NCBI GenBank assembly: GCA_007692585.1
Contig: REBU01000034.1
Coordinates: 1-62,156, forward strand
DNA from: Paracoccaceae bacterium
Lineage (GTDB): Bacteria > Pseudomonadota > Alphaproteobacteria > Rhodobacterales > Rhodobacteraceae
Direction: 5' to 3'
Length of the DNA: 62,156 nucleotides
In this document: in pieces, positions 5,272 through 57,334 of the stretch
Layout: each line of letters opens with the position of its first letter
How positions within the stretch are numbered: position 1 is the first letter of the stretch
Made by a program: the position numbers and the translations under genes
Notes under the pieces: generated by a model
Database searches by the model: none
What the model was told of the DNA's origin: nothing
What the model saw: only the letters and a program-made list of their open reading frames with translations

Positions 5272-5466
5272 GTGCAATTCCATATCGAGAACATGACCTG
5301 CGGTGGCTGTGTGCGCGGCGTGACCCGCGCGATCCACAGCGTGGACCCAGGCGCGGCGGTCGAGGCTGACCCGCCTGCACGCAAACTGATGGTGCAATCG
5401 GGAAAAACTGGCGCAGAGTTTCTGCCAGCGCTGGCCGCCGCCGGTTTTGATGCCAGGCTCACATAA
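5272..5466 (+). CDS. copZ: CopZ-like copper chaperone (heavy-metal-associated domain)
   Basis: A 64-residue cytoplasmic protein made only of a heavy-metal-associated fold, with the Cu(I)-binding motif MTCGGC near its N-terminus. It is expected to hand Cu(I) to CopA. An ATG at 5203 in the same frame was rejected as the start because it lies upstream of the -35 of the CueR-type promoter. The GTG at 5272 has a strong AAGGAGG (5260-5266) at good spacing and starts the domain correctly. The DUF305 gene follows 10 bases downstream. Confidence 0.85.
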
Positions 5467-5476
5467 GGAAACAGAC

Positions 5477-5887
5477 ATGAAACTTACAAAACTTTCCGCA
5501 GTGTTTCTGGTCGGCACCGCATTGGCAGTCGGCGGGCTCACCTATGCACAGGCGCAGATGAACCATAGTCATATGGACCATGGCCATCTGGACCATGGCG
5601 CGCATGCCGATCATGGTGGGACCAGCGATGATCCGGTAATTGCCGCCTATATGGCTGTGAATGACGTGATGCATCGCGATATGGCCATCGAGTTCACTGG
5701 CGACGCAGATGTGGATTTCGTGCGCGGCATGATCCCGCACCATCAGGGCGCGATTGACATGGCCAAGGTGGTGCTGGAATTCGGCTCTGACCCGGAAATT
5801 CGTGCTCTGGCTGAAGAGGTGATCGAGGCGCAGGAAGCCGAGATCGCCATGATGCGCGCCTGGCTTTCTGAGCGTGGCCACGACTGA
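5477..5887 (+). CDS. DUF305 periplasmic protein, His/Met-rich N-terminus
   Basis: A 136-residue protein with an N-terminal signal sequence (about residues 1-25), then a His/Met-rich stretch (repeated HxDHGxxxH), then a DUF305 four-helix domain with [15 protein letters not shown]305 proteins are often found with copper genes and bind metal through His and Met. The start at 5477 has AAGGA at 5465-5469; the in-frame ATG at 5447 lies inside copZ. It probably shares the copZ promoter. A periplasmic copper-binding role is inferred from neighbours and composition. Confidence 0.85.
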
Positions 5888-5895
5888 TTGACCGT

Positions 5896-5919
5896 GGCGG
5901 GACGGGAACCCGTCCCGCC
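5896..5919 (+). terminator. Strong hairpin after the copZ-DUF305 unit
   Basis: GGCGGGACGGG (5896-5906), AA, then its exact complement CCCGTCCCGCC (5909-5919), placed 8 bases after the DUF305 stop. There is no clear T-run, so it may be a terminator or an mRNA-stabilising hairpin. Confidence 0.6.
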
Positions 5920-42871: not shown

Positions 42872-44095
42872 ATGTCAGAACAATTGATTTTCGACAGCCG
42901 CTATTCATGGGCGCGTTTGGTCGTAACGCTGGCGATTGCGACCATCGGCAATGTCGGCATGTGGTCGGTGATCGTCATCATGCCGGCGGTACAGGCGGAA
43001 TTCGGGGTGTCGCGCGCGGACTCGTCTTTGCCCTATATGTTGACAATGCTGGGATTTGGGTTGGGGAACCTGCTGATCGGCCGCGCCGTCGACCGTTTCG
43101 GGATTACCGCCGCCCTGATCGGTGCGAGCCTGCTGTCAGGACTAGGGTATATGGCCGCAGCTGCCAGCCCATCGATCCTGATATTATCCATCGTGCATTT
43201 CGTGATCGGTTTGGGGTCGGCCGCAAGCTTCGGACCGCTAATCGCCGATATCTCGCACTGGTTTCAGCGCAGGCGCGGTATTGCAGTGGCGGTGGCCGCC
43301 AGCGGCAATTACCTCTCAGGTGCCATCTGGCCGATGGTGCTGGCAGGGGTGCTTCTGGACAATGGGTGGCGCGCTGTATGTCTTGCACTCGCCGTGATCG
43401 TCATAGTGCTTGTTATCCCCTTGGCCCTTTTGCTGCGCCGCCGGGTGCCAGAGCTCAGCATGACAGCCGCCGCAGAGTTCTCGCTGGCGAACCGGGCAGC
43501 TTGCGGTTTGTCACCGCGCAGGCTCGCATGGCTGCTTGCCGCAGCGGGGCTTGGATGCTGCGTGGCCATGTCCATGCCGCAAGTGCATATCGTGGCACTC
43601 TGCGTCGATCGGGGGTTCGGCCCTGCCGTCGGTGCCGAGATGCTGTCACTTATGCTGCTGGGCGGCGTTGTTTCACGGCTGATATCGGGCTTGATCGCGG
43701 ACAAGCTGGGCGGTGTTTTGACCTTGCTCATTGGCTCGGTGCTTCAGATGCTGGCGCTGTTTCTATATCTGCCGGCGGGTGGGCTGGTATCGCTTTATGT
43801 TGTCAGTCTGGTCTTCGGCTTGGCACAGGGCGGGATCGTTCCGGCTTACGCTCTGATCGTGCGGGAATACATGCCCGCGCGCGAAGCAGGTGAGCGGGTG
43901 GGTTTTGTGATCATGGCGACGATCCTCGGGATGGCACTGGGAGGTTGGATGTCGGGCTGGATCCACGACTTGACGGGATCCTATCAGCTGGCATTCCTGA
44001 ACGGGATCGTCTGGAACGCGCTGAATGTTGCGATAATGCTATTCATTCTGACCCGCACCTTGCGCCCGCGCCGAAGCGTTATCGCGGCTGAGTGA
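42872..44095 (+). CDS. Major facilitator superfamily transporter
   Basis: A 407-residue transporter with about twelve hydrophobic helices and the loop 2-3 signature GRAVDRFG; a second half-signature is SGLIADKLGG. Its branch resembles monocarboxylate/oxalate-formate type carriers (RGIAVAVAASGNYLSGAIWP), but the substrate cannot be stated. It is divergent from the PLP enzyme across 272 bases and may share regulation with it. Confidence 0.88.
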   Translation: MSEQLIFDSRYSWARLVVTLAIATIGNVGMWSVIVIMPAVQAEFGVSRADSSLPYMLTMLGFGLGNLLIGRAVDRFGITAALIGASLLSGLGYMAAAASPSILILSIVHFVIGLGSAASFGPLIADISHWFQRRRGIAVAVAASGNYLSGAIWPMVLAGVLLDNGWRAVCLALAVIVIVLVIPLALLLRRRVPELSMTAAAEFSLANRAACGLSPRRLAWLLAAAGLGCCVAMSMPQVHIVALCVDRGFGPAVGAEMLSLMLLGGVVSRLISGLIADKLGGVLTLLIGSVLQMLALFLYLPAGGLVSLYVVSLVFGLAQGGIVPAYALIVREYMPAREAGERVGFVIMATILGMALGGWMSGWIHDLTGSYQLAFLNGIVWNALNVAIMLFILTRTLRPRRSVIAAE

Positions 44096-44290
44096 TGCAA
44101 ATATAGACGCTGGCCAGTGAATTTCCCCACGCGCGCGCAAGGCGCAGCCCGCTAGTGCGCATTGGCCCGGCACAGGGGCGTGACGGAGCGTAGATCGCGG
44201 ATCTTGCCTGCTGCGCCGACACCCTGAAGTGCAGTGGATCTGCCTTGGCAGACCGTAAGCCCTTGGGCGGGGGGTAGCGTCCGGCGCGGC

Positions 44291-44358
44291 GATGCGGGTC
44301 AGACTGCGGTGTGTGACCCGCATCGCTGCATGGCAGAAGGCGACGACAGCTGCCATGC
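44291..44358. terminator. Two tandem perfect hairpins between convergent units
   Basis: GATGCGGGTC (44291-44300) pairs with GACCCGCATC (44315-44324); three bases later GCATGGCAG (44328-44336) pairs with CTGCCATGC (44350-44358). Both stems are perfect. They lie between the MFS gene and the end of the biuret operon, 30 bases beyond the atzF stop. Without T-runs a Rho-independent mechanism is not certain. Confidence 0.55.
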
Positions 44359-44388
44359 GTCCCGATTTGTGTGGTTTATCCCATGGCC

Positions 44389-46275
44389 TCAACCAACAGG
44401 TCTGTCTGCCGCGGATGTATCCAGAGAGCTGACACGCTGTTGGGGCGCAACAGGCGCGGTCCGGTCCAGCCTTGTGGCCAGATAGGCGCGCCAGCCGCCG
44501 TGACTGGTTATGTCCTCGGCCTGATCCAGCCCTGCTGGCTCGACCAGGAAGCCGACCACATCTCGACCATCGACAAGCGTCACGCGCCCGAGCCCGAGAG
44601 GTGAGGGGATCTGCACCAGGAGCGCGCCAAGCCTGGATGTCGGAACCGACCAGAGTTCAAGCGCGACCGACGCGCCTTGCGCCGCCACTCGGAGAAGACC
44701 GGGACGGGCGGGTGGTCCCCCTGCCAAGGCGAAAAACCGATACTCGGGCGCGGTTTCGGTCGCTTCCAGGAAGCGCCCGCCAAGGCTCGTGATCTGATGA
44801 TTGAGTGGCAACTCCGCCATGTGGGCACCGACAAGCGCGATGGCCGTCTCGTCGGGCAGCGGTGCCGCGCGGGGCAGTGTGATGCGGGGCAGGGGCGTTC
44901 CGGTCGCGCCCATGGGGGGGGCGGACGCGTCCTGCAACGCCTGCGCCCATCCCGCCGCCAGCACATCCTGTCCGCAGCGCGCCAGAAGCGTCACGCTTCC
45001 CGGCCTGCCATCGCTGCGTGCCGCTACGGGCACTGCGATTCCGCACATATCCATCAGGTTTACGAAGTTGGTATAAGTGCCAAGCCGACTGTTGGGGCCA
45101 ACCGGGTCAGCAGCGAGGTCGGCGACTGTGTAAAAGGTCGGAACGCTCGGAACACAGAGCAGGTCGGCACCGGCCATCAGGGTTTCCGCGCGGCGCCGCA
45201 GGTCTGCCAGACGATAGATGCCCTTGAACGCATCGGCTGCCGACAGGGCGTCCGCAGCGCCGATGATCTGCGCGGTGACCGGATGCAGCGCGGCGGGGTC
45301 GCGGCGCATCAGATCTTCGACGACGGTCATCCGCTCGGCAACCCAGGCTCCCTCGTAAAGCATCCGTGCGACGTCATGAAAGGGCGAGAAATCGATCTCG
45401 ACAATCTGCGCATCGAGGGATCTGAGCTGATCAAGCGCCGCCGAGAAGCTTGCGGCCTGCGCGTCATCCCCGAAAAACTGGCGGCTTCGCGCATCGGGCA
45501 CAGCAATGGTGATACGCGCAGGCGGAGCCGCGAGCGGCGGGGCAGGAAGCCTGCGTGAATAGGCATCATCGGGGTCATGGCCACAGGCTGCGCGGAATGC
45601 AGACCAGGCATCGGGCACGGTCAGCGCAAAAATCGAAATCGTATCCAGCGTGCGGCAGGCCGGCACGACACCGGTCGCTGACAGCGCGCCGAGTGAGGGT
45701 TTCAGCCCGACGATGTTGTTGAGCGCGGCCGGAACCCGCCCCGATCCTGCCGTGTCGGTTCCAAGCGCGAAGGACACGATGCCACGCGCCACCGCCACCG
45801 CTGACCCCGAGGAAGACCCGCCCGGCACGATCGATGCGTCGACCGCATTTTTCGGCACGCCATAGGGCGAGCGCACACCGACCAATCCAGTTGCGAACTG
45901 GTCGAGGTTGGTCTTGCCCAGCGCAATTGCCCCGGCCGCCCGCAGGCGCGCCACCACGAAGGCGTCACTCTCGGGCGCATACGCATAAGCCGGGCAGGCC
46001 GCCGTCGTTGGCAGGCCGTCCATGTCGATATTGTCCTTGATCGCAAAAGGGACACCCCAGAGCGGATACATATCGGGGTCAAAGGGGGGAAGCGCGCTGA
46101 CATCCGCAAGGATCGCGGGCTCGGGACGCAAGCTGATGAAGATTGCCGGATCATTCGACGCCTCGATGCGGCGCAACGCCTCGATCATCACGGCGCGGGG
46201 CGACAGCCCCGCGGCATAGGCGGCGTGCAGAGCGGCAATGTCGAAGGACAGTTCTTCGGTTTCGGTAAAAGTCAT
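44389..46275 (-). CDS. atzF: Allophanate hydrolase
   Basis: A 628-residue amidase-signature enzyme that splits allophanate into ammonia and carbon dioxide, the last step of biuret or cyanuric acid breakdown. The catalytic triad positions are seen at FAIKDNIDMDG (Lys), GGSSSGSAVA (Ser) and GTDTAGSGR (second Ser). It has the long C-terminal extension (after about residue 450) that marks allophanate hydrolases rather than simple amidases. Last gene of a nine-gene operon with biuret hydrolase. The upstream small frame ends at its ATG. Confidence 0.92.
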   Translation of the reverse strand: MTFTETEELSFDIAALHAAYAAGLSPRAVMIEALRRIEASNDPAIFISLRPEPAILADVSALPPFDPDMYPLWGVPFAIKDNIDMDGLPTTAACPAYAYAPESDAFVVARLRAAGAIALGKTNLDQFATGLVGVRSPYGVPKNAVDASIVPGGSSSGSAVAVARGIVSFALGTDTAGSGRVPAALNNIVGLKPSLGALSATGVVPACRTLDTISIFALTVPDAWSAFRAACGHDPDDAYSRRLPAPPLAAPPARITIAVPDARSRQFFGDDAQAASFSAALDQLRSLDAQIVEIDFSPFHDVARMLYEGAWVAERMTVVEDLMRRDPAALHPVTAQIIGAADALSAADAFKGIYRLADLRRRAETLMAGADLLCVPSVPTFYTVADLAADPVGPNSRLGTYTNFVNLMDMCGIAVPVAARSDGRPGSVTLLARCGQDVLAAGWAQALQDASAPPMGATGTPLPRITLPRAAPLPDETAIALVGAHMAELPLNHQITSLGGRFLEATETAPEYRFFALAGGPPARPGLLRVAAQGASVALELWSVPTSRLGALLVQIPSPLGLGRVTLVDGRDVVGFLVEPAGLDQAEDITSHGGWRAYLATRLDRTAPVAPQQRVSSLDTSAADRPVG

Positions 46276-46502
46276 GCGGCCTCTTGTTCGGGCTGGAGAA
46301 AGTCGGCAGGCGGGGGGCAGTGCACTGGCAAGTCGCGGTCATACGCGCACCCGCCGTCGGATTGCCCGCCACGCAGGGCGCTGATTATTCTGCATGCGCC
46401 TTGCCAAGGGGCGGGCATGTCTGCGCGCGCGTGGAAGATTCTGATATGCGCCTTCTGGATGTCACGCGGCGGGCCGCCGGGACTGGGCAACATCTCAGCC
46501 AT
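46272..46502 (-). CDS. Candidate small gene between isochorismatase-like and atzF genes
   Basis: A 76-residue frame starting [10 protein letters not shown] and ending PEQEAA that exactly fills an otherwise empty gap. Its ATG lies within the last eight bases of the hydrolase gene, and its TGA overlaps the atzF ATG. An AGGA lies about nine bases upstream. Third codon positions are GC-rich, like real genes here. There are three cysteines and no membrane segment. No family is recognised, and any frame ending at an ATGA start would show the second overlap, so it may be chance. Confidence 0.4.
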
Positions 46503-47163
46503 CGAGCGCGGTCCTGATCTCGTCGGTGGTGGCGGTCCATCCCACGATCGCGCCCTGCGCACGGATCATCGCAAGCGTCGCGGACTTGAACTCGGGGAAA
46601 TAGCTTTCCGTCGCATCCTCCACCAGCAGCGCCTCAAAGCCCCGATCATTCGCCTCGCGCATGGTTGTCTGCACGCAGACTTCCGTCGTTACTCCGGCGA
46701 AAAGCAGCGTCGTTATGCCAAGTCCGGTCAACACCTCCATCAGCGGGGTTGCGTAGAAAGCCCCCTTGCCGGGTTTGTCGATCACTGTCTCGCCCGGCAG
46801 GGGCCTGAGCTCGGGCACGATATCGGCGCCCGGTTCGCCTGCGATCAGAATGCGGCCCATTGGGCCGTCGTCCCCGATCCGGGCCGAAGGTTTGCCCCGC
46901 AAGCGTTTGGCAGGCGGGCAATCCGACAGGTCGGGGGCGTGACACTCGCGGGTGTGAATGACCGCAAGACCCGCGCCCCGAGCAGTTTCGATCAGCCTTG
47001 CCACGCGCGGCACGATCGCCTGAAGCGGGCGCACATCGTTGCCAAGGGCCTCTCCGAAACCGCCATTTTCGATGAAGTCGCGCTGCATGTCGATGACGAT
47101 CAGCGCCGTGCGCGCAGGGTCGAAATCAAACGCGTAAGGCAGGGCATTCGCGATCCGCGCCAT
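46495..47163 (-). CDS. Isochorismatase-family cysteine hydrolase, paralogue of BiuH
   Basis: A 222-residue cysteine hydrolase. The catalytic Asp lies in VIDMQRDF, the Lys in [10 protein letters not shown], and the Cys in [17 protein letters not shown]. It is clearly related to the BiuH-type gene two genes upstream (shared HTRE, PDLSD, GEPG and DKPGKG segments) but diverges around the substrate pocket and C-terminus (GWTATT instead of GAVSDS). It overlaps the ABC ATPase gene by one base. Candidates are triuret hydrolase, a second biuret hydrolase, or another ureide/amide hydrolase; context alone cannot decide. Confidence 0.85.
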
Positions 47164-48692
47164 CAGGCATGCCCCCCCATGTGATAGCCGATTTCTGCCA
47201 GACTGGCTGTCGCGGCAGGGGTCTGATAGGCGATGCGCCCTTCGGACATGACCAGGATGCGGTCAGAGAGTTCCATCACCTCGTCCAGATCCTCGCTCAT
47301 CAGCAACACTGCGGCCCCTGCGTTGCGCGCCGCTATGATGCGTGCGCGGATCTCGGCCACAGCCGAGAAATCGAGCCCGAAGCACGGGTTGGAAATCACC
47401 AGAAGGCTGACATCGCCGGTCAGCTCGCGGGCCAGCACGGCGCGTTGCACATTGCCCCCCGAAAGCGCTGATATCGGCGCGTCCAGAGAGGCCGTCTTGA
47501 CCTTGAAAGCCGTCACCAATTCGGTCGCCCGGGTGCGCATTTCCCGCCCCGACAGCCAGAACCTGCGGCCTGACCCGTTCAGGTCAAAACTTCGGAACGC
47601 GATGTTCTCGGTCACGCTCATCCGCGCCGCGCAGGCGTTGCGCAGCGGTTCCTCGGGCAGATAACGCACGGCCAAAGCCTGCGCCTGCTCACGGGTGGCG
47701 CGATAGGCCGCACCCTTGACGCGGATCTCTCCGGCCTCGACCGGGCGCTGTCCGGTCAGCACTTCCATCAGTTCCATCTGCCCGTTGCCGGAAATGCCCG
47801 CAACGCCCACCACTTCGCCTGCACGGACCGTCAGGCGGTCAATCTCGATCAGTTTCAGCCCAGAGCGATCGCGTGTGCGTATCCCCCGCACTTCCAGAAC
47901 CGCTGTGCCGGGATCGCCCGACCGTGTGGCCGGTGCGCGCGCAGCCTCTGCTCCGATCATCATGGCGGCCATCTCCGCGTGACTAAGCGCGGCCACCTGG
48001 CCAGAGCCGACATGCCGCCCCCTGCGCAGCACGGAGACGTCATCGGCAAAGGCGCTCACTTCGCGGAATTTATGGGTGATCATCAGGACACTGATCTGAC
48101 CGTTGGTGCACATTGCCTTGACATGGCCCAGCACTTCATCGGCCTCATCCGGGGTCAGAACGCTGGTGGGTTCATCGAGGATCAGAAAACGGCGACCGAG
48201 GTAGAGTTGCTTCAGGATTTCCAGCTTCTGGCGCTCGCCTGCCGAAAGCTGCTGCACGGGAATGTCCAGCGGTACCCGGAACGGCATTTGATCCATGAAG
48301 TCCGTCAGTGCGACACGTTCGCGCGCCCAGTCGATCACAGCGGGGGTATCCCGGCGGCTGATGACCAGGTTTTCGGCGGCGGTCAGCGACGGAACAAGCG
48401 TGAAATGCTGATAAACCATGCCAAGGCCCTTGGCATGCGCATCACGCGGGTCGCGGATGATCGCCTCGAAACCGCCGACCGTCATCTGCCCGGCGGTAGC
48501 GTGGTAAAACCCCATCATGCATTTCACGAGGGTCGATTTCCCCGCCCCGTTCTCGCCCAGAAGCGCGTGAAATGCGCCGGGCATTACCCGGATCGACACA
48601 TCGTCAAGCGCCGTGAAAGCCCCAAAACGCATTGTCATGCCCAGTGTCTCGACGCCCAGTGCGCCATTCGGGTGAACGCCGGGTGAGCTCAT
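47163..48692 (-). CDS. BMP-type ABC transporter ATPase, two fused domains
   Basis: A 509-residue double ATPase of the nucleoside/sugar (BMP-dependent) import type. The first half is intact: [31 protein letters not shown]. The second half has degenerate nucleotide motifs (GISGNGQ instead of Walker A, and SNPCFGLD), as usual in this family, with [12 protein letters not shown]. It overlaps biuH by four bases and the paralogous hydrolase by one. The binding protein and permeases are at the start of the same operon. Confidence 0.92.
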
Positions 48693-49366
48693 GGCAGCGC
48701 CGCAATCAGGGTCGCGCTATCGCTGACCGCGCCGAACACACCGCCCTGCATGGTCACCATCTTCAGCGCCGCTGCATGGTTGCCTGCATCCGTCGCACCG
48801 CAGCAGTCTGACAGCACGAGACACTCGAACCCGCGGTCATTGGCCTCGCGCATGGTGGTGGACACGCAGACATCCGTGGTGATGCCGGTCAGGATCAGAT
48901 TGTCGATGCTCTGCGTGCGCAGGATCAACTCCAGGTCGGTCGCGCAAAATGACCCCTTGCCGGGCTTGTCGATGATCACTTCGCCCGGCTTAGGGTAGAG
49001 TTCGGGGATGATGTCCCAACCCGGCTCGCCCCGCACAAGGATTTTGCCACAAGGGCCGGGATCGCCGATCCCCGCGCCGATTTGTTGCGAGCGCCAGCGC
49101 TTGTTTGGGGGAAGGTCGGACAGGTCGGGGCGGTGGCCTTCGCGGGTGTGGATGATGTGATAGCCCTTTGCCCGCATCGCATCCAGCGTGGCCTTGATCG
49201 GCGCGATGGGGGCCTGCGTCATGGACAGGTCATAGCCCATCATGTCGACATAGCCACCCGCGCCGCAGAAATCGGTTTGCATGTCGATGATGACCAGTGC
49301 CGTGTTGTCACAGCGCAGGTCACCGTTCCACGGCCAGGCATAGGGATTGGCGGCAATCTGGGTCAT
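48689..49366 (-). CDS. biuH: Biuret hydrolase (isochorismatase-fold cysteine hydrolase)
   Basis: A 225-residue enzyme expected to hydrolyse biuret to allophanate and ammonia. Family features: WPWNGDL near the N-terminus, [17 protein letters not shown] (catalytic Asp), [35 protein letters not shown] (Lys), [17 protein letters not shown] (Cys) and [11 protein letters not shown]. The whole layout matches characterised BiuH. It is coupled by four-base overlaps to the formamidase and ATPase genes, and allophanate hydrolase lies downstream to complete the route. Confidence 0.88.
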
Positions 49367-50373
49367 TCTGCAGCCGCTTTCTGCCCGAAAATGCGCTCAG
49401 GCGCGGGAAAGCCGCAGGATGTGCCATCGGTCACGCGCACGTCATCCTCCCATGGCAGGCGATAGTGCCCCGCGACCATGTCCTGCATGTAGGTATAGGG
49501 GCAGTCCTGCGCGCCGCCTTTCACCGCAGTGAAGCCTCGATGGCCCAGCTGATAGATGTTGTTCTCCACGCCCCAGCCCGCGCGTGCCTCGCGCACCAGA
49601 TCAGGGCGCACTTCAGCGGTGATGATCTCATCCGCGCGGCCCGTGGTGCCATGCGCCAGAACCGTGCCGTCGTAATTCACGATCATCGCCTCTCCCATGC
49701 TGTCGAACGTCCCGTCAGAGCCTGACATGCAAACATTGGCCGTCACCATCAGATTGCAGAAACTGTTGGACTGGTTGGTGAAGCGCCATGCGTCGCGAAT
49801 GGGGGCTGTGTAGCCTGCCGTACGCAGCATGATCTCGGCGCCCTTATAAGCGGCCTCGCGCGCCATTTCGGGAAACATGCCGTCGTGGCAGATGATCAGT
49901 GACAGCTTGCAGCCCTTCGGCCCGTCGATCACAGGGATGCCCAGGTCGCCCGGTTCCCAGGGTTCTACGGGCACCCAAGGGTGAAGCTTGCGGTAGTAAA
50001 GCCGGATCTCGCCAGTATCGTCGATCACGATGCCAGTGTTCCACGGATTGCCAGCGGGGTTCAGTTCCATCAGGGAAAAACAGCCCCAGATGCGATGGTC
50101 GCGGCAGGCGGTCTTGAACGCGGCGACCTCTGGCCCGTCCATCCGGCACATGATCGCAGGGTTTGTGTCCATTGACAGACCATGCAGGGCGTATTCAGGA
50201 AACACGACAAGGTCCATCGTGCCCATATTTCGCCGCGCCTTGCCCACCAGCTCCACCACGCGCGCGGTCTGGCGCGCAAGGTCAGCGGGGGTTTCCACCA
50301 CGGGAAGCTGCAGTTGCACCAGCCCGATCACCACGCCGTTGTCAGATTTGTTCAGCCCGCCCAATCCGTTCAT
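49363..50373 (-). CDS. amiF: Formamidase (AmiF-type, nitrilase superfamily)
   Basis: A 336-residue nitrilase-fold enzyme hydrolysing formamide to formate and ammonia. The catalytic triad is visible as Glu in FPEYALHGL, Lys in [18 protein letters not shown] and Cys in [20 protein letters not shown]. Length and these segments match AmiF closely. Coupled to biuH by a four-base overlap, in a transporter-led operon for reduced-nitrogen compounds. A related aliphatic amide could be the actual substrate. Confidence 0.9.
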
Positions 50374-50382
50374 GTCGTCCTC

Positions 50383-51306
50383 TCACTTGGTGATGGATAG
50401 CTCGCCCGGCGCGCCAGACATGGCGCGTGTGGGCGATGATGTTGCAATCAAGAGCCCCAGCGTCAGGACGTAGGGAGCTGCGTAGAACAGGTAATAGCCC
50501 GAAGTGATCCCGACGGATTGCAGCGCCGGGCCAAGCGCGCCCGCGCCGCCGAACAGCAGGGCCGCCCAGATGCAGGCAACAGGGTTCCAGCGCGCGAAGA
50601 TCACGAGTGCCACGGCCATCAGCCCCTGGCCTGATGAGATCCCCTCGGTCCAGCTTCCGGGATAATAGAGCGACAGATACGCTCCCCCGATGCCCGCCAG
50701 CGCGCCACCCGCAGCCGTCGCCGCGATGCGGATGGGCACAGGGCGCAGGCCCATCGCGCGCGCGGCATCCGTGCTGTCTCCGACCACGCGCAGGATCAAT
50801 CCCACGCGCGTGGTGCGCAGCATCCAGGAAATGACCAAGGCCAGTCCCAAACCTATGAGAAACAGGACATTGACGTCCAGCGCGGCCCGGATCTGGGGGA
50901 TATCCGACCACCAGCCGAAGGGGATGGACGGCAGATAGGGCGCGACTGGCTGGATGAAGCGCTTGCCGAAGAAGAACGCCAACCCCATGCCGAACAGCAT
51001 CAGCGCGATCCCGATGGCGATATCGTTCACGCGCGGTATGGAGCAGATCACACCATGAACCACCCCGAACATCGCTCCTGCCACAGACGCGGCGGCCACC
51101 CCCGCCCAGGCGGATCCGGTCAGATAGGCCACGCCATATCCTGACATGGCCCCGAAGACGAGAGTTCCCTCCAGCCCAAGGTTGATGCGGCCCGAGCGTT
51201 CGGTCAGCAACTCGCCCAGACTGACGAACAGGAAGGGTGTGGATACGCGGATTGCGCCGCCGACGATGGCGATCAGGATTGACCACAGGCCGAGATCGGT
51301 TTCCAT
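50383..51306 (-). CDS. BMP-type ABC transporter permease, second subunit
   Basis: A 307-residue permease with about eight helices: STPFLFVSLGELLTERSGRI, LGLEGTL and TTRVGLILRVVGDSTDAARA, typical of the second permease of BMP-type importers. The ATG at 51306 overlaps the preceding TGA (ATGA) and has GGAGG upstream; a GTG at 51318 is a weaker alternative. Confidence 0.9.
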   Translation of the reverse strand: METDLGLWSILIAIVGGAIRVSTPFLFVSLGELLTERSGRINLGLEGTLVFGAMSGYGVAYLTGSAWAGVAAASVAGAMFGVVHGVICSIPRVNDIAIGIALMLFGMGLAFFFGKRFIQPVAPYLPSIPFGWWSDIPQIRAALDVNVLFLIGLGLALVISWMLRTTRVGLILRVVGDSTDAARAMGLRPVPIRIAATAAGGALAGIGGAYLSLYYPGSWTEGISSGQGLMAVALVIFARWNPVACIWAALLFGGAGALGPALQSVGITSGYYLFYAAPYVLTLGLLIATSSPTRAMSGAPGELSITK

Positions 51307-52400
51307 CACGCCCTCCACTTTTCCGGGACAAAGGGCTTCAGCCGCCCGTAGAGGGCTTCTGACATCAGGATTGACAGAAAGACGAAGCCCTGAAGCACCA
51401 GCACAGTGGCATCCGGCAGATCCATGCGGCGCTGGATCAGGCCAGAGGAGGCCTGAAACCCTGCGAGCAAGATCGCGACAGGAATGATGACCAACGGGTT
51501 GTGCCGGGCGAGAAAGGCGATCAAGATGCCCGTATAGCCGTAGCCTGCCACCAGCGATCCGTTGGCCGAACCCAGAACCGCAGTGACTTCAAACATACCC
51601 GCCAGCCCTGCAAAGCCACCTGCGAGCACACAAAAACCAAGGATCAGACGCCCTACGGGCAAGCCCTGCACCTGCGCTGCGCGCACATTGCCACCGGCGA
51701 TCCGGGCCGCGAAGCCCCATGTGGTTCGGTCGATGAGCATCCAGGCCAGCACGCAGCAGGTAACGCCGACAGCCAGCCCCCAATGCACGTCCAGACCGGG
51801 GATGTTGCCGACCCGCAAATCGGGGGGCAGGGCGGCAGTAGAGGGCTTGTTGAGGCTGGTGGGGTCGCGCAATGGCCCCTCGACAAGGTGGTTCATCAGC
51901 GCGATGGCGATATAGGCCAGCAGCAGTGATGAGATCGTCTCGTTCACGCCGCGGTAATGGCGCAGCCCTCCGGCAAGGCCGATCCAGAGACCGCCCACCA
52001 GCATCGCCCCCGCAGCCATGACCGGCAGCGCAATGACAGGGCCGCTTCCGATCAGGGCCGCCCCCAAAGCCCCCGCCGTCACCCCACCCAGAACAATAGC
52101 ACCCTCGCCACCAATGACCACCAGACCAAGCCGCGCGGGCAAGGCCACGCAGAGCGCGGCAAACAGGAGCGGGGCTGTCCGTGACAGAGTATTCTGCCAC
52201 GAAAAGGCCGATCCGAAGCCGCCAAGCCAGACCAGCGAGAAATACTGGACCGGCGATTTTCCTTGCGACACCAGGAACAGGCTGAATGCGGCAAAGCCTG
52301 CGAGGAGCGCAAGGAGCGGGATCACCACTGGCTCCGCCCGGCGGGCGAGACAGGGAAGCAATGCGCTTTCCCCCGGTCTGATGACGGCATGTTGCATCAT
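51306..52400 (-). CDS. BMP-type ABC transporter permease, first subunit
   Basis: A 364-residue permease with about ten helices and family segments GLVVIGGEGAIVLGGVTAGA and VNETISSLLLAYIAIALMNHL, followed by GNVRAAQVQGLPVGRL. It follows the binding protein after 26 bases. Confidence 0.9.
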   Translation of the reverse strand: MMQHAVIRPGESALLPCLARRAEPVVIPLLALLAGFAAFSLFLVSQGKSPVQYFSLVWLGGFGSAFSWQNTLSRTAPLLFAALCVALPARLGLVVIGGEGAIVLGGVTAGALGAALIGSGPVIALPVMAAGAMLVGGLWIGLAGGLRHYRGVNETISSLLLAYIAIALMNHLVEGPLRDPTSLNKPSTAALPPDLRVGNIPGLDVHWGLAVGVTCCVLAWMLIDRTTWGFAARIAGGNVRAAQVQGLPVGRLILGFCVLAGGFAGLAGMFEVTAVLGSANGSLVAGYGYTGILIAFLARHNPLVIIPVAILLAGFQASSGLIQRRMDLPDATVLVLQGFVFLSILMSEALYGRLKPFVPEKWRA

Positions 52401-52426
52401 TCCGCTCCCTTGTGCCCTTGCTCTGG

Positions 52427-53542
52427 TTACGCGGTCGACCCGATGACGCCTTCGACGAGGTAGTCCATGCTTTCCAGCGCGATGTCGGTTTCCACCAGAG
52501 CCTCGCCAGCGCCGAGCAAGGGCTTGCCGGTGTTGTCGTTCAAGGGCCCCTTCAGCGCCGCAAAACCGCCGGCTAGGATCTCGGCCTTGGCCGCCTCGAA
52601 CTGCGCGCGGGCGGCGTCACTGACCGCAGACCCGAGCGGCGACATCTTGATGAACCCGTCGGCCAGACCGCCACGCACGAAATTGTCGATCATGCCGCCA
52701 TCCAGAACAGTCTGGACCATCCCGGTATAGACCCCCGCCCAGTTCCATTCAGCGCCTGTCAGGTATCTGTCAGGGGCAAGCGCGGTCTGGTCTGCGTGGT
52801 AGCCGCAAATGAATGCGCCGCGCCGTGCTGCCGTTTCCATCACCACCTTCGGCCCGTCGACATGGCAGGTGATCACGTCGCAGCCCGCATCGACCAGCGC
52901 GTTCGTGGCTTCGGCCTCTTTCACGGCCAGCGACCATTCACCGGTGAAAATGACCTGACAGGTGATCGATGGATCGACAGCGCGCGCCCCCAGAAGGAAA
53001 GAATTGATGTTCAGCAAGACCTGGGGAATGGGTTTGGCCGCGACAAAACCGATCTTCTTCGTCGCGCTCATATGTCCGGCGACAATGCCGTTCAGGTACT
53101 GGCCCATTCCGATATAGCCGAAATAGCTGCCTACATTGGACGGCATCCCATCGGTCCACAGACCCGCTGCGTGCTGGAACCGGATGTCGGGATATTTCGG
53201 TGCCAGTTCAAGGATATGTGGGTTGAAATAGCCAAACGATGTCGGGAAGATGAGCGACGCGCCGTCGAGGTTGATCATTGATTCCATCGATTTCTGCACA
53301 TCGATGGTCTCGGCGACATTCTCCTCTTCGATCACCGTGACGCCCGCCATCGCCTTGACAGCGGCGGCCCCTTCGGCATGGGCCTGATTGTAGCCAAAAT
53401 CGTCGCGTGGCCCGACATAGATGAAGCCGACGGTCATGTTGGACTGCGCGCGCGCAGGCAGGCCGAGCGCCGCGGCGGCCCCGAGCGCAGTCGTGGCCGA
53501 CAGGAAACTTCGGCGTGAGAAGGCAGGTGTCGATCTGGTCAT
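52427..53542 (-). CDS. BMP-family periplasmic binding protein
   Basis: A 371-residue binding protein with a Tat signal (SRRSFLSATTALG, ending ARAQ) and the basic membrane protein (BMP) fold: VGFIYVGPRDDFGYNQAHAEG, GASLIFPTSFGYF, KKIGFVAAKPIPQVL and GYHADQTALAPDRYL. BMP proteins bind nucleosides, but in this operon (biuret hydrolase, formamidase, allophanate hydrolase) a ureide or amide ligand is more likely; that is inference. First gene of the operon; CGGAG precedes the ATG. A triple inverted-repeat array lies about 95 bases upstream. Confidence 0.9.
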   Translation of the reverse strand: MTRSTPAFSRRSFLSATTALGAAAALGLPARAQSNMTVGFIYVGPRDDFGYNQAHAEGAAAVKAMAGVTVIEEENVAETIDVQKSMESMINLDGASLIFPTSFGYFNPHILELAPKYPDIRFQHAAGLWTDGMPSNVGSYFGYIGMGQYLNGIVAGHMSATKKIGFVAAKPIPQVLLNINSFLLGARAVDPSITCQVIFTGEWSLAVKEAEATNALVDAGCDVITCHVDGPKVVMETAARRGAFICGYHADQTALAPDRYLTGAEWNWAGVYTGMVQTVLDGGMIDNFVRGGLADGFIKMSPLGSAVSDAARAQFEAAKAEILAGGFAALKGPLNDNTGKPLLGAGEALVETDIALESMDYLVEGVIGSTA

Positions 53543-53637
53543 GGCAGGGATCTCCGGAAGGATGGGCGCCGCGCTGCGGCGGTTTCAAGCTGCCCAAACC
53601 ATAATCCCGAGAACCTGTTGTTGTCGTCTGCTAGTTC

Positions 53638-53665
53638 TGCAGCGAAGTGCTGCAAAAAATGCAGC
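53638..53665. promoter_or_regulatory. Alternating TGCAGC/GCTGCA operator-like array upstream of the biuret operon
   Basis: TGCAGC (53638), GCTGCA (53649) and TGCAGC (53660) are spaced exactly 11 bases apart, forming two overlapping 17-bp perfect dyads with 5-bp centres (GAAGT and AAAAA). It lies 96 bases before the first gene. Elsewhere in 53543-53882 no gene or terminator is recognised. The binding protein is unknown; the 17-bp dyad size is like sites of nitrogen regulators. Confidence 0.5.
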
Positions 53666-53882
53666 GCACATGATCGGGCGCCGACCTGACGCGGTGTGAG
53701 GCGCGAATTCAGCGAAAACCGCGCACCAGGTCACGTCCAGCGAAAAGGAAAATGAGTGACGCAAGCGCGCGCCGACATGTCCCCGCCATGAGAGATGCAG
53801 GGGCCGCGTCACAATCGTCTGAGCGGCGTTGCGGCCTAAGTGGCCCCGGTCCTGCATGCGCCCTCTGCGTCGTCGCCCCGCA

Positions 53883-56800
53883 TCACCATGCGGTGAGACA
53901 TCTGAGGCTCAGGAGCGTAGGCAGACTGCCAAAGAATGGCGGCACCGGGCTGTACACCGGGCTGTAGTTGCCGATACTGGGAGGATCACGATCTCCCGGG
54001 TAGAGCGTGAATTCAGGGAAAACGATGCCTTCCCGATCCATCTGCACGAACACTGCCGGTCGGTTTTCGAAATTGCGCACAAAGCGCATGGCACTCTGTT
54101 CGATGGTCATCGTCTCGCCCGACGGGATGGTTACAAATTCAGTTCCGCCGGCCCACCCATACTGGATGCGGCAGTCTCGCGACGGCTCACCCTCAGGCAG
54201 GCAGATTCCGAACATCGGGATAAGTTCGCCCTGACTGAAATAGCAGTACGTCCCCTCCTCGACGCAGTCGCCAAATTCTGGGCCACATAAGCAATTCCCC
54301 GAGGCGTCAGTCTCGCGGCAATCATCGCGGCCCCTGCACTCGACATTGAGTGTCGTAGGTTGCGATGTGAGGTAGAACGACCCCGTTGGCGCGTCGACCC
54401 CATCCCCCGAAGTGTGCCCGGGGTAAAGCCGCACGACGTTTTCGAACCGCCCCGGACAGGCCCCGGGCTGGACACGCACCCGGACGGTAATGGGCAAGTG
54501 GGCTCCGCCGCCTGGAACCGTCAGGTTGCAGCGCAGGCGCGTCAGTGAGTAATTGCACCCTGGGGCACCTTGCGGGACGAAAGCCAAACCAGCAGGCAAT
54601 TCATCAAACAACGTAACCTCGATCGGGGACGGGCCGTGGTTCAGGATCACGAACTCAACGTCTGCAAACGTTGCGGCGCCCTCGGCCTGAAACACTTCCG
54701 GCGGACTGAATGACTTGGATACGGTGACCCGTTCAAACTCCGGTATTTCGCACAGAACTGCCAGAAGAAGGTCCGTCGCACCGTCGAGAACGGGCTGTCC
54801 GGCTGGCGAAATGGGCTCAATGTCGATCGACATGGTTTCACCCAACAGGGCCGCGCAAAATCCGTCAAGCGGCACCCCTGCAACATCGATGGCATATCCC
54901 AGATCGGGACGGCTGCCACCGAGATAGTCGAAAATGTCCGGAAATGTGGCGTTCGGCCCGATCTGAAGATAGAACATCTGTGGGAGCGCATCCTCTGCCC
55001 CGATAATCACCGAATCGTCGTCCTCGATCTCCATCAGCGAATGCACGGACGGCCCAGTCGCGAGGTCGGGCTGGTCCACAGTGCCGACGATATGCGCGCG
55101 CCCTGCGCTGTCGAGCGCGATGGCTTCGCCTAGGTTGCTGCGCCCCGTCTGTGCATAGGCGAGATTGGGCCCGAAAATGCCCCCGAAATTTGTCGCGCGA
55201 CGCAGCGTGATCGCGCTCCTGTCGACCAAGATCGTCTGGTCGGGACCAATGCTAATCTCATCCAACCAGACACGACTGCCCGCTGCTGCCACAAACCCGC
55301 GAAAATCTTCACGCTTGTCCAGGGCAACCCCATGCAGAAAATCCCCCCGGCCCACTCCGTCATAAGTGAGAAACATCACGTCGCCTTGAGACGAAAACCG
55401 CGCGATGAAGCCGTCGAAACAGTTCAACGGGCCTGGGAACTCGCTATGCAGGATGATCGGGGTGAAGGAGGCCGGCGGCAGACAGTCCGTGGCGGATGTT
55501 CCGGCTGCGATGCCACTGTGATTGGCTTGCTTCACGAAAACGGTCGGGGTCGTCGGAAGATCGAAAGACCGTGTCGTGCCGACGGCATAGGCCTCGCCGT
55601 CCAGCACGGCGATGTCCTGCACGACATCGACGCCACTGCCGCCGACATAGGTGAGATAGTCATAGGCATCGAGCTGAGGTTTTATCCGGGCCACGAAACC
55701 GTCAAAGACCCCCAGACCGGGGGCTGATCCCGGCGCGTTCACCGATTCGTCGAGCCCCGAGTCAAAACCGATCGCACCGCCGATGAACAGGGCATGCTTT
55801 GCCGGATCTGCCGGAAGATCCAGCGCGATCGCGTTGGGATAGGCATCGGGTCCGTGGCCGATCATGGTGCCGTTCAGGAACATCCCCGTGGCCCCCAGCA
55901 GGGCAACAAAGCCGCCCCCATGCGATCGTGTCTCATGTATTGCACCAGGTGAGGTGGGGAAATTTTCAGAACGCGACCAACCCGACACAAAGAGGTCTGG
56001 AGCCGAGCGCAAGCGCACACCCGGCCCACCGTCAGGCGCGCGGGCAGGCGCGGGATAGGGGGCTACCCCAGTGGCGAAATCCTCTCCACGCCCTCCGATC
56101 ACGGTGGCATAAATGAACGACAGCCCTGCGCCCTGCCGCTCGAACCTCGCCGCGAAGGCGTTTCTCGTGCCATTGATCACGCCATAACCCCCAGCCTGAG
56201 GGAAGCTGAACCCGTTCGTGGTGCCTGAAATCGCGATTTCAGTCCCGTCCGGGGATATCTTGAGGTCCGGGACGGGCCGCAGTGGCCCGACCCGGCTGTA
56301 AGATGCACCCGCCATTCCATCGAGCCGATCACTGCCGAACCAGGACTGAAAAAGCAGCTTCGGATCCACGATCAGCCTTGCGTCGCGGGCGCGTCCTTCG
56401 ACGGTGAAGCCAACTTCCTGGGGGCCGAGCAGGACGAAAGCGGCAGGCAGAGGCTCAAGACGGTCACCTCGGATCTGTGCCGCTTTGGGCGCGGTCAGCT
56501 CAATGATACCGCCGCTGGTCCGGATCGCCAGTGCGCCCGTCTTTGTTAGCGCCAGTTCTCTGGCGCCGTGCACCGCGAAACGCACGGTATCGAGTGCTAT
56601 GCCCGGTTGCAGGTCGAGCGCGAATTCCAATGCGCCGGAGGCGTGATGAATGACCATGTCGACCCCCGGATACAGATCACGGTAGATCAGCTCGCGATAG
56701 GCTGGCACAGCTTCGTGCCAATTCGCCCGGTCCGCGCCATCCAGAATGTTGATTATTCCTTCCACGCGGTCGCCGGGCACAATACGGGCACCGCGTGTGC

Positions 56801-57209
56801 GCAGGAAGCTAAGCCCGAACAGATTGCCCGTAGGGCCAGCGTCAAGCGCATCCGCATCGTCCGTTGCGCGCCGGAAAACGGCAACATCGAAACCATCAGG
56901 ACGGAATGCCGCCGAAAAGCTCCCGGCGCGCAGAAGATGGGACACATGCGCACCAGCCTGGCCGACATTTTCCTCGAACACCGTTGGCAGGCCAAGGACA
57001 TCGGCTACGATGCCGGGCGCGTCCGTGGGGCGTTCTGACAGGTCGGCGCGCTCTGCGGGAGTTTGCGCCATGATCTGCGCGTTTGCCCCGACCGATGCGC
57101 ATGCCAGCACCAGCAGAACGCGCAGCATCACTTTCGGATGCCGCCCACGTGTTGCGAAAACACTGCGAAGCTTCTGGAAAAGACCTGTCACGTCCTGAGC
57201 CGAGCCCAT
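53883..57209 (-). CDS. Secreted SBBP-repeat beta-propeller protein with DUF11-like domain
   Basis: A 1108-residue secreted protein. A hydrophobic signal lies near residues 27-45. The N-terminal domain FEENVGQAGAHVSHLLR to LYPGVDMVIHH matches the DUF7948 type that precedes SBBP repeats. Several propeller blades follow (YLTYVGGSGVDVVQDIAV, IYATVIGGRGEDFATGVA). A DUF11-like beta-sandwich (LFDELPAGLAFVPQG) and a Cys-rich segment (about 11 Cys) lie near the C-terminus. The start at 57209 has GGGAGG upstream; the frame runs to 57269. It is divergent from a LuxR-type gene. Function unknown; surface binding or adhesion is plausible. Confidence 0.85.
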   Translation of the reverse strand: MGSAQDVTGLFQKLRSVFATRGRHPKVMLRVLLVLACASVGANAQIMAQTPAERADLSERPTDAPGIVADVLGLPTVFEENVGQAGAHVSHLLRAGSFSAAFRPDGFDVAVFRRATDDADALDAGPTGNLFGLSFLRTRGARIVPGDRVEGIINILDGADRANWHEAVPAYRELIYRDLYPGVDMVIHHASGALEFALDLQPGIALDTVRFAVHGARELALTKTGALAIRTSGGIIELTAPKAAQIRGDRLEPLPAAFVLLGPQEVGFTVEGRARDARLIVDPKLLFQSWFGSDRLDGMAGASYSRVGPLRPVPDLKISPDGTEIAISGTTNGFSFPQAGGYGVINGTRNAFAARFERQGAGLSFIYATVIGGRGEDFATGVAPYPAPARAPDGGPGVRLRSAPDLFVSGWSRSENFPTSPGAIHETRSHGGGFVALLGATGMFLNGTMIGHGPDAYPNAIALDLPADPAKHALFIGGAIGFDSGLDESVNAPGSAPGLGVFDGFVARIKPQLDAYDYLTYVGGSGVDVVQDIAVLDGEAYAVGTTRSFDLPTTPTVFVKQANHSGIAAGTSATDCLPPASFTPIILHSEFPGPLNCFDGFIARFSSQGDVMFLTYDGVGRGDFLHGVALDKREDFRGFVAAAGSRVWLDEISIGPDQTILVDRSAITLRRATNFGGIFGPNLAYAQTGRSNLGEAIALDSAGRAHIVGTVDQPDLATGPSVHSLMEIEDDDSVIIGAEDALPQMFYLQIGPNATFPDIFDYLGGSRPDLGYAIDVAGVPLDGFCAALLGETMSIDIEPISPAGQPVLDGATDLLLAVLCEIPEFERVTVSKSFSPPEVFQAEGAATFADVEFVILNHGPSPIEVTLFDELPAGLAFVPQGAPGCNYSLTRLRCNLTVPGGGAHLPITVRVRVQPGACPGRFENVVRLYPGHTSGDGVDAPTGSFYLTSQPTTLNVECRGRDDCRETDASGNCLCGPEFGDCVEEGTYCYFSQGELIPMFGICLPEGEPSRDCRIQYGWAGGTEFVTIPSGETMTIEQSAMRFVRNFENRPAVFVQMDREGIVFPEFTLYPGDRDPPSIGNYSPVYSPVPPFFGSLPTLLSLRCLTAW

Positions 57210-57334
57210 TCGTGCTACCTCCCTTTTAGCGCTGCAGCGCATCGGGTCTGAAACTGCTTGAGTGACCAATTACATCGACAATAATCATGCGGCGTAAATC
57301 TGGCTCAGGTTCGGGGTTTTCTATGCTATTGTCA

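Follow-up and report, generated by a model that had tools for sequence, protein, structure and literature searches.

The stretch of DNA analyzed here (62,156 nt; the window), from a Paracoccaceae bacterium whose genome comprises 116 contigs totaling 3.26 Mb, contained an operon of eight minus-strand genes (44389–53542) that probably constitutes a dedicated system for the uptake and mineralization of the condensed ureides triuret and biuret, nitrogen-rich compounds related to urea. In the order of transcription, these genes were predicted to encode a BMP-family binding protein (bmp), two permeases (permease 2, followed by permease 1), a formamidase (amiF), a biuret amidohydrolase (biuH), a double ATPase, a triuret hydrolase (trtA), and, after a gap of 219 bases, an allophanate hydrolase (atzF). 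Family matches bore out the gene content given by a first-pass annotation of this span, namely a BMP-type importer with a formamidase, a biuret hydrolase, a second isochorismatase-fold hydrolase, and an allophanate hydrolase. Its description of the operon as tightly overlapping applied to the genes from bmp through trtA, in which neighbors ranged from 26 bases apart to 13 bases overlapped, but not to atzF, because 219 bases separate this gene from trtA.

In the proposed route, the BMP protein, exported by twin-arginine translocation (TAT), would capture triuret, biuret, or both for import by the two permeases together with the double ATPase. TrtA, by homology to the characterized enzyme, is expected to remove the terminal nitrogen of triuret, yielding carboxybiuret and ammonia. 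Carboxybiuret, which has a half-life of approximately 20 min in vitro (PMC7948467), would then give biuret and CO2, either spontaneously or possibly aided by an AtzH-like protein that is encoded elsewhere. Homology further predicts that BiuH converts biuret to allophanate and ammonia, and that AtzF converts allophanate to ammonia and CO2.

Conservation and Distribution of the Operon

The trtA loci from species genomes were the best 80 of 584 relatives, and the counts thus describe close relatives; 65 of these loci were complete, having no less than 8 kb of sequence before trtA and 3.5 kb behind it. The genes for BiuH, both permeases, and the ATPase were present in 64 of these 65 loci, and bmp in 63, which argues against a chance assembly of the operon. 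In the same set, atzF was found on 43 loci and amiF on 28. Within the order to which the window belongs, the operon was patchy: a TrtA match at 1e-30 was detected in 9 of 292 genomes (own genome included, and counting one genome at 36% and another with a best match of 57%), and none was detected in three other genomes of the genus.

Close BiuH proteins, defined by an identity of 73% or more, were encoded in 31 of 385 genomes in the class; for G635, one of the 31, the match was partial. One locus from each of the 30 genomes other than that of the window made up a set of BiuH-centered loci, although several of these genomes were also among the 80 above. The trtA gene was present at an identity of at least 60% in 21 of these 30 loci and missing from nine, one of which had a 59% match. 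Importer genes adjoined biuH in 27 of the 30 loci; the contig of L202, which is counted among them, ends so that only the ATPase gene remains.

Triuret, Biuret, and Allophanate Hydrolases

The two isochorismatase-fold hydrolases were very probably TrtA (46495–47163, minus strand) and BiuH (48689–49366, minus strand). BiuH scored 420 bits on the equivalog model NF050097 (cut-off 370), and its nearest solved chain was BiuH of R. leguminosarum (6AZO, 424 bits). Its paralogue, the trtA product, reached 256 bits on the same model, which is under the cut-off, and was closest to TrtA of Herbaspirillum (6XIX, 306 bits), the best BiuH-type chain scoring 212 bits. A tree of 59 rows, built with a quick method, placed the window TrtA in groups with characterized TrtA (26 rows and 24 rows, with Shimodaira–Hasegawa-like approximate likelihood ratio test [SH-aLRT] values of 99 and 98, respectively), whereas a BiuH group of 31 rows (SH-aLRT 96), in which the window BiuH joined its characterized enzyme, excluded it. 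The named loci nearest to both window proteins were from Paracoccaceae.

Six positions discriminate TrtA (F35, N41, A134, E160, Y187, and I205) from BiuH (Y, Y, S, D, T, and V) (PMC7948467). The window TrtA carried F, N, A, E, Y, and I at these positions, and the window BiuH carried Y, Y, S, D, T, and V. The catalytic Asp-Lys-Cys (D24, K129, and C162) was also present in the window TrtA, and E160, Y187, and I205 were kept in all 116 trtA rows. The first-pass annotation had proposed that the second hydrolase might supply biuret from triuret, and had pointed to a phylogeny of both enzymes; the grouping of this paralogue with characterized TrtA, apart from BiuH, and the agreement at all six discriminating residues lend that proposal good support by homology. 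The last enzyme of the route, AtzF (44389–46275, minus strand), was predicted from a TIGR02713 match of 766 bits (cut-off 511) and consisted of an amidase domain (PF01425) and a C-terminal AH_C domain (PF21986).

Four other loci (L179, L181, L182, and L183) contained TrtA-like genes of 59–60% identity, accompanied by AtzH-like genes and by atzF matches at 31–40%. No biuH or importer was found in these four stretches, and their TrtA-like enzymes possibly act on a different substrate.

Importer and Binding Protein

The importer is of the ATP-binding cassette (ABC) type, and all of its genes were located on the minus strand: bmp (52427–53542; PF02608, E = 8.5e-36), with a twin-arginine signal (TAT_signal_seq), permease 2 (51306–52400; PF02653, BPD_transp_2, E = 1.5e-25), permease 1 (50383–51318; 311 aa, GTG start; PF02653, BPD_transp_2, E = 2.1e-32), and the double ATPase (47163–48692), which contained two ABC_tran stretches. 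A longer open reading frame (ORF) considered for permease 1 (50342–51331) was rejected, as it lay in the wrong frame and had no family match.

The solved chains closest to the window BMP were AtzT (6PI5, 210 bits) and 3S99. AtzT binds guanine with a KD of 110 nM through Tyr45, Trp194, Ser97, Glu165, Asn218, and Asn220, together with the Phe98 backbone (PMC6834077). The window BMP has Tyr, Trp, Ser, Gln, His, Asp, and Phe at these positions, respectively; Tyr51, Trp203, and Ser102 thus correspond to Tyr45, Trp194, and Ser97 of AtzT, and Gln174 replaces Glu165. The comparison was extended to 101 cluster BMPs, including that of the window and with some genomes reached twice. None of them carried Glu at the Glu165 position, which was occupied by Gln in 93, Thr in five, and Ser in three, whereas in five far BMPs this position held Glu twice and otherwise Ala, Leu, or Asn. 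Trp194, Ser97, Asn169, His (218), and Asp (220) were kept in all 101, and the partner of the Trp in the aromatic stack was always Tyr or Trp. In 3S99, in which adenine was modeled, His and Asp occupy the positions of Asn218 and Asn220 as in the window BMP, but the Glu is retained. Such a pocket appears to suit a planar ligand with hydrogen bonding unlike that of guanine, and triuret or biuret would fit this description. Because of the fixed linkage with biuH and the loss of the guanine-contacting Glu throughout the cluster, the importer is rather likely to carry triuret or biuret. The suggestion of the first-pass annotation that the importer carries ureides thus gained indirect support.

The eight BMPs with Thr or Ser at the Glu165 position (from L142, L156, L161, L170, L171, L079, L166, and L174) formed one group (SH-aLRT 100) and had His at position 139. 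At three of these eight loci, amiF was present but trtA was not. These residues give a hint of a shifted ligand in this subgroup.

Cupin and AtzH-Like Genes Behind trtA

In most relatives, the gap between trtA and atzF (46276–46494, minus strand, 219 bases) is the slot of a small cupin gene; in the window, it held only a 73-aa frame without a Pfam match. The cupin gene (approximately 110 residues; PF12973, Cupin_7) was located directly behind trtA in 51 of the 65 loci, as counted with a profile run against stop-to-stop frames (start-to-stop ORFs gave only 29 of the same 65). Its HxH, Glu, and His were invariant in 33 aligned copies, a motif expected for a metal cupin. An AtzH-like gene (PF11533) was present on seven of the 65 loci, none of which also had the cupin, and neither gene was found on another seven. 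Among the BiuH-centered loci, the 21 with trtA had the cupin in 11 cases and the AtzH-like gene in four, and neither gene was found on any of the nine without trtA, indicating that both follow trtA.

The two genes also alternated at the genome level. An AtzH-like gene was encoded elsewhere in 18 of 18 TrtA genomes that had neither gene on the locus, but in six of 32 cupin genomes (Fisher's test, 7e-9), these 32 representing part of the cupin loci, with L031 not among them. Across 64 TrtA rows, which included loci with the AtzH-like gene on the locus, the window, and L070, the genome contained only the AtzH-like gene in 31, only the cupin in 26, both in seven, and neither in none. As a background, an AtzH-like gene over the cut-off was found in 21 of 190 genomes of the class, of which 12, own genome included, were also in the BiuH-type list. 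On the TrtA tree, the cupin changed four times, giving one independent pair on supported branches and four on all branches; the association was not significant, and a sign test on so few pairs cannot reach 0.05. Kinship could therefore explain the pattern, since the independent changes were few and several AtzH-like rows were close kin (Reyranella). AtzH was proposed to convert dicarboxyurea, a neighboring compound, to allophanate (PMC6219798). The alternation of the two genes hints that the cupin may be a second, unrelated carboxybiuret decarboxylase.

All six other trtA loci from the family of the window (L143–L148) contained the cupin. No match to a cupin or an AtzH-like gene was found in the window, and a search of the gap for a cupin remnant gave only chance blastx matches (best E 0.75). 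The genome harbored one AtzH-like gene on another contig (C102), beside the genes of an additional ABC importer, one of the NMT1 type (L203: 3488–6550). This importer was 49–72% identical to those of two betaproteobacterial loci, in one of which (L049) it lies inside the triuret operon and in the other (L057) a few kilobases behind it. The AtzH-like protein encoded on C102 might act on carboxybiuret in trans, although the chance of this is placed somewhat short of even. A link of the cupin to cyanuric acid hydrolase was rejected: none of 28 PF09663 places had a cupin within approximately 1.5 kb or less on each side, and an AtzH-like gene was found at this distance in one of the 28.

Formamidase

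The amiF product (49363–50373, minus strand), a member of the nitrilase superfamily, was predicted to be an AmiF-type formamidase, with 570 bits on the equivalog model NF009803 (cut-off 406). It contained E60, K133, and C166, which we take to be catalytic, and W137, E141, and Y192, presumably their neighbors. In all 51 cluster AmiFs, ten compared residues, including the catalytic ones, matched AmiF of H. pylori. The same 51 proteins differed from four outside formamidases by 28 fixed differences, five of which were no more than three residues away from Y188, the active-site tyrosine.

AmiF was closely tied to BiuH. In the order, it was present at an identity of at least 79% in six of 292 genomes (own genome included), adjoining biuH in all six, and the other eight AmiF matches were only 34–36% identical. 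In the class, AmiF was found in 12 of 385 genomes (E ≤ 1e-70, own genome included), all of which fell within the 31 close-BiuH genomes (hypergeometric 7.6e-15, ignoring kinship). Among 47 amiF genes of relatives, a count that excludes the window and five repeat loci, 45 were located between permease 1 and biuH, one was at a contig end before biuH, and one preceded bmp. On BiuH-centered loci, intact amiF occurred on seven of 21 with trtA and on three of nine without trtA at 60% or more; in G576, it was on another contig (L194) that ends behind amiF. Because all 12 AmiF genomes were close-BiuH genomes and amiF was also found on loci without trtA, AmiF follows BiuH and the importer rather than TrtA. 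At L200 (G415; 5387–5896), an amiF lacking its middle part occupied the usual slot, which suggests that the gene is being lost there. Mapped on a BiuH tree of 101 loci, gain and loss of amiF required 21 changes, versus a mean of 33.6 and a minimum of 26 in 100 shuffles. Thus, amiF comes and goes, following BiuH and the importer, and AmiF is an accessory of this module. An exchange of the cupin for amiF was considered and rejected, as the cupin was also present in 24 of the 28 amiF loci (Fisher's p = 0.24).

The first-pass annotation gave the formamidase no role. Removal of the ureido nitrogen from N-formylurea would yield N-formylcarbamate, which is expected to decarboxylate to formamide. It is tentatively suggested that formylated ureides such as N-formylurea share the importer, that BiuH or TrtA converts them to formamide via N-formylcarbamate, and that AmiF releases ammonia and formate. 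The measurable activity of TrtA on formylurea speaks for this route, as do the fixed differences of the cluster AmiFs close to Y188. In a broader and rather doubtful version, the natural food would go beyond triuret from fertilizer and be a mixture of oxidized-nucleobase fragments, including N-formylurea and N-formylbiuret, hence the formamidase; the small cupin, binding a metal, would replace the AtzH-like decarboxylase in Alphaproteobacteria, and in the window the cupin would have been lost, with the AtzH-like protein encoded beside the second importer serving from another contig. We infer the BMP ligand, the AmiF substrate, and the function of the cupin from sequence comparison.

Alternative Explanations

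Several observations weigh against these proposals. Among the guanine contacts of AtzT, the change of the Glu alone separates the window BMP from 3S99, and Ala occupies this position in one far BMP from the genome of the window. The solved cupins nearest by sequence were ChrR anti-sigma factors, a likeness that does not suggest an enzymatic role. The amiF gene was absent from 37 of the 65 complete trtA loci, and 19 of the 31 genomes with close BiuH lacked it; therefore, it is not needed for the use of triuret or biuret. The activity of TrtA on formylurea is low, amounting to 0.3% of its triuret activity (Table 2 of PMC7948467), and the main text of the report on the structure of BiuH does not contain the word formylurea (PMC5806882). 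With ten of ten residues as in true formamidases, AmiF could merely serve free formamide, co-imported or diffusing in, without a chemical tie to the ureide branch. On a plasmid of Klebsiella (L139), a formamidase gene likewise follows the genes of a urea importer, and a similar arrangement has been described for Pseudomonas veronii (PMC13209695). However, such an enzyme would be expected away from the cluster too, yet AmiF in the class was confined to close-BiuH genomes. The plain formamide role is as tentative as the formyl-ureide role, and the two appear about equally likely. As an amidase in an operon without a cupin or an AtzH-like gene, AmiF might alternatively supply the missing carboxybiuret step in an AtzE- or TrtB-like role. 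This is very unlikely, given the frequent presence of the cupin on amiF loci and the occurrence of amiF on loci without trtA, where triuret gives no carboxybiuret.

The importer, in turn, might be of a common type that, like AtzT, serves purines or nucleobases, its linkage to the hydrolases being fortuitous and ureides entering the cell by another way. Its closest solved relatives bind guanine or had adenine modeled, the aromatic stack is retained in every cluster BMP, and PMC12625717 names the linked importer a nucleoside transporter. On the other hand, biuH was situated amid the importer genes in almost all loci, the Glu that contacts guanine is gone from all cluster BMPs, and a long branch (2.1 changes per column; SH-aLRT no higher than 83; the tree contained two very long rows) parts these proteins from AtzT and its kin. 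Chance linkage of a purine importer is accordingly considered improbable. Even less credible is an operon that serves cyanuric acid rather than triuret: although BiuH was characterized within the cyanuric acid pathway (PMC5806882), the genome of the window had no match to the cyanuric acid hydrolase family PF09663.

Surroundings of the Operon and Plasmid-Borne Copies

A large gene with a DUF7948 domain was located upstream of bmp (53883–57269 and flanks). None of the scanned flanking genes encoded a LysR or GntR regulator, whereas several relatives have one beside the operon. No sigma-54 site with one mismatch or less was found before bmp, and the window-wide count of such sites was at chance level, as was the frequency of sigma-70 and terminator-like sites in 44000–54000. 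The whole operon with amiF and without the cupin was also found on two enterobacterial plasmids, from Enterobacter cloacae (CP009856; L137) and Klebsiella pneumoniae (NZ_CP023489; L138). Both carried a GntR regulator gene and had transposase genes near both ends (IS1 and IS26 in the latter). In the plasmid collection, 78 of 291 records that encode a TrtA relative at E ≤ 1e-30 were from Escherichia.

Comparison with Known Systems

The operon is a real, conserved, and mostly known pathway in variant form. Its core, including the importer linkage, is already known, because gene clusters for a TrtA-(TrtB)-BiuH-AtzF pathway of triuret were reported for Herbaspirillum sp. BH-1 and Rhizobium leguminosarum (PMC7948467), and trtA, biuH, and atzF were described together with the importer bmpA-nupABC in ammonia-oxidizing bacteria and comammox Nitrospira (PMC12625717). 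The new parts are the tie of the formamidase to the cluster and the alternation of the cupin and AtzH-like genes. No description of either was found in the open-access papers searched, as judged from titles and the beginnings of abstracts, nor was the loss of the guanine-contacting glutamate of AtzT found described in the literature searched. The natural sources of triuret have been described as unknown (PMC7948467). With the natural origin of both biuret and triuret open, the tie between a formamidase and BiuH directs attention to a class of possible natural substrates for which simple compounds suffice as tests. If the importer does carry ureides, these would be added to the ligands of the BMP family, and if the cupin acts as suggested, the same decarboxylation would have been solved by two unrelated proteins. 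No new concept is required for any of these three possibilities.

Compared with the clusters of Herbaspirillum and R. leguminosarum, the window operon groups TrtA, BiuH, and AtzF in the same manner, with identical discriminating residues, but adds amiF and has no cupin or AtzH-like gene; searching the main text of that report by term revealed neither an importer nor a formamidase (PMC7948467). The clusters of ammonia oxidizers have the same enzymes and the same kind of importer, there called a nucleoside transporter, and the comammox contigs likewise lack trtB; in contrast to the window, no formamidase is mentioned in the main text (PMC12625717). The window BMP has the TAT export, aromatic stack, and serine in common with AtzT of Pseudomonas sp. 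ADP, and differs from it in the replacement of Glu165, Asn218, and Asn220 by Gln, His, and Asp (PMC6834077). The formamidases of H. pylori and B. cereus (2DYU and 5G3O) belong to the same family as the window AmiF and share its catalytic Glu-Lys-Cys and neighboring residues, whereas the cluster AmiFs are set apart by their genomic setting and by the fixed differences described above.

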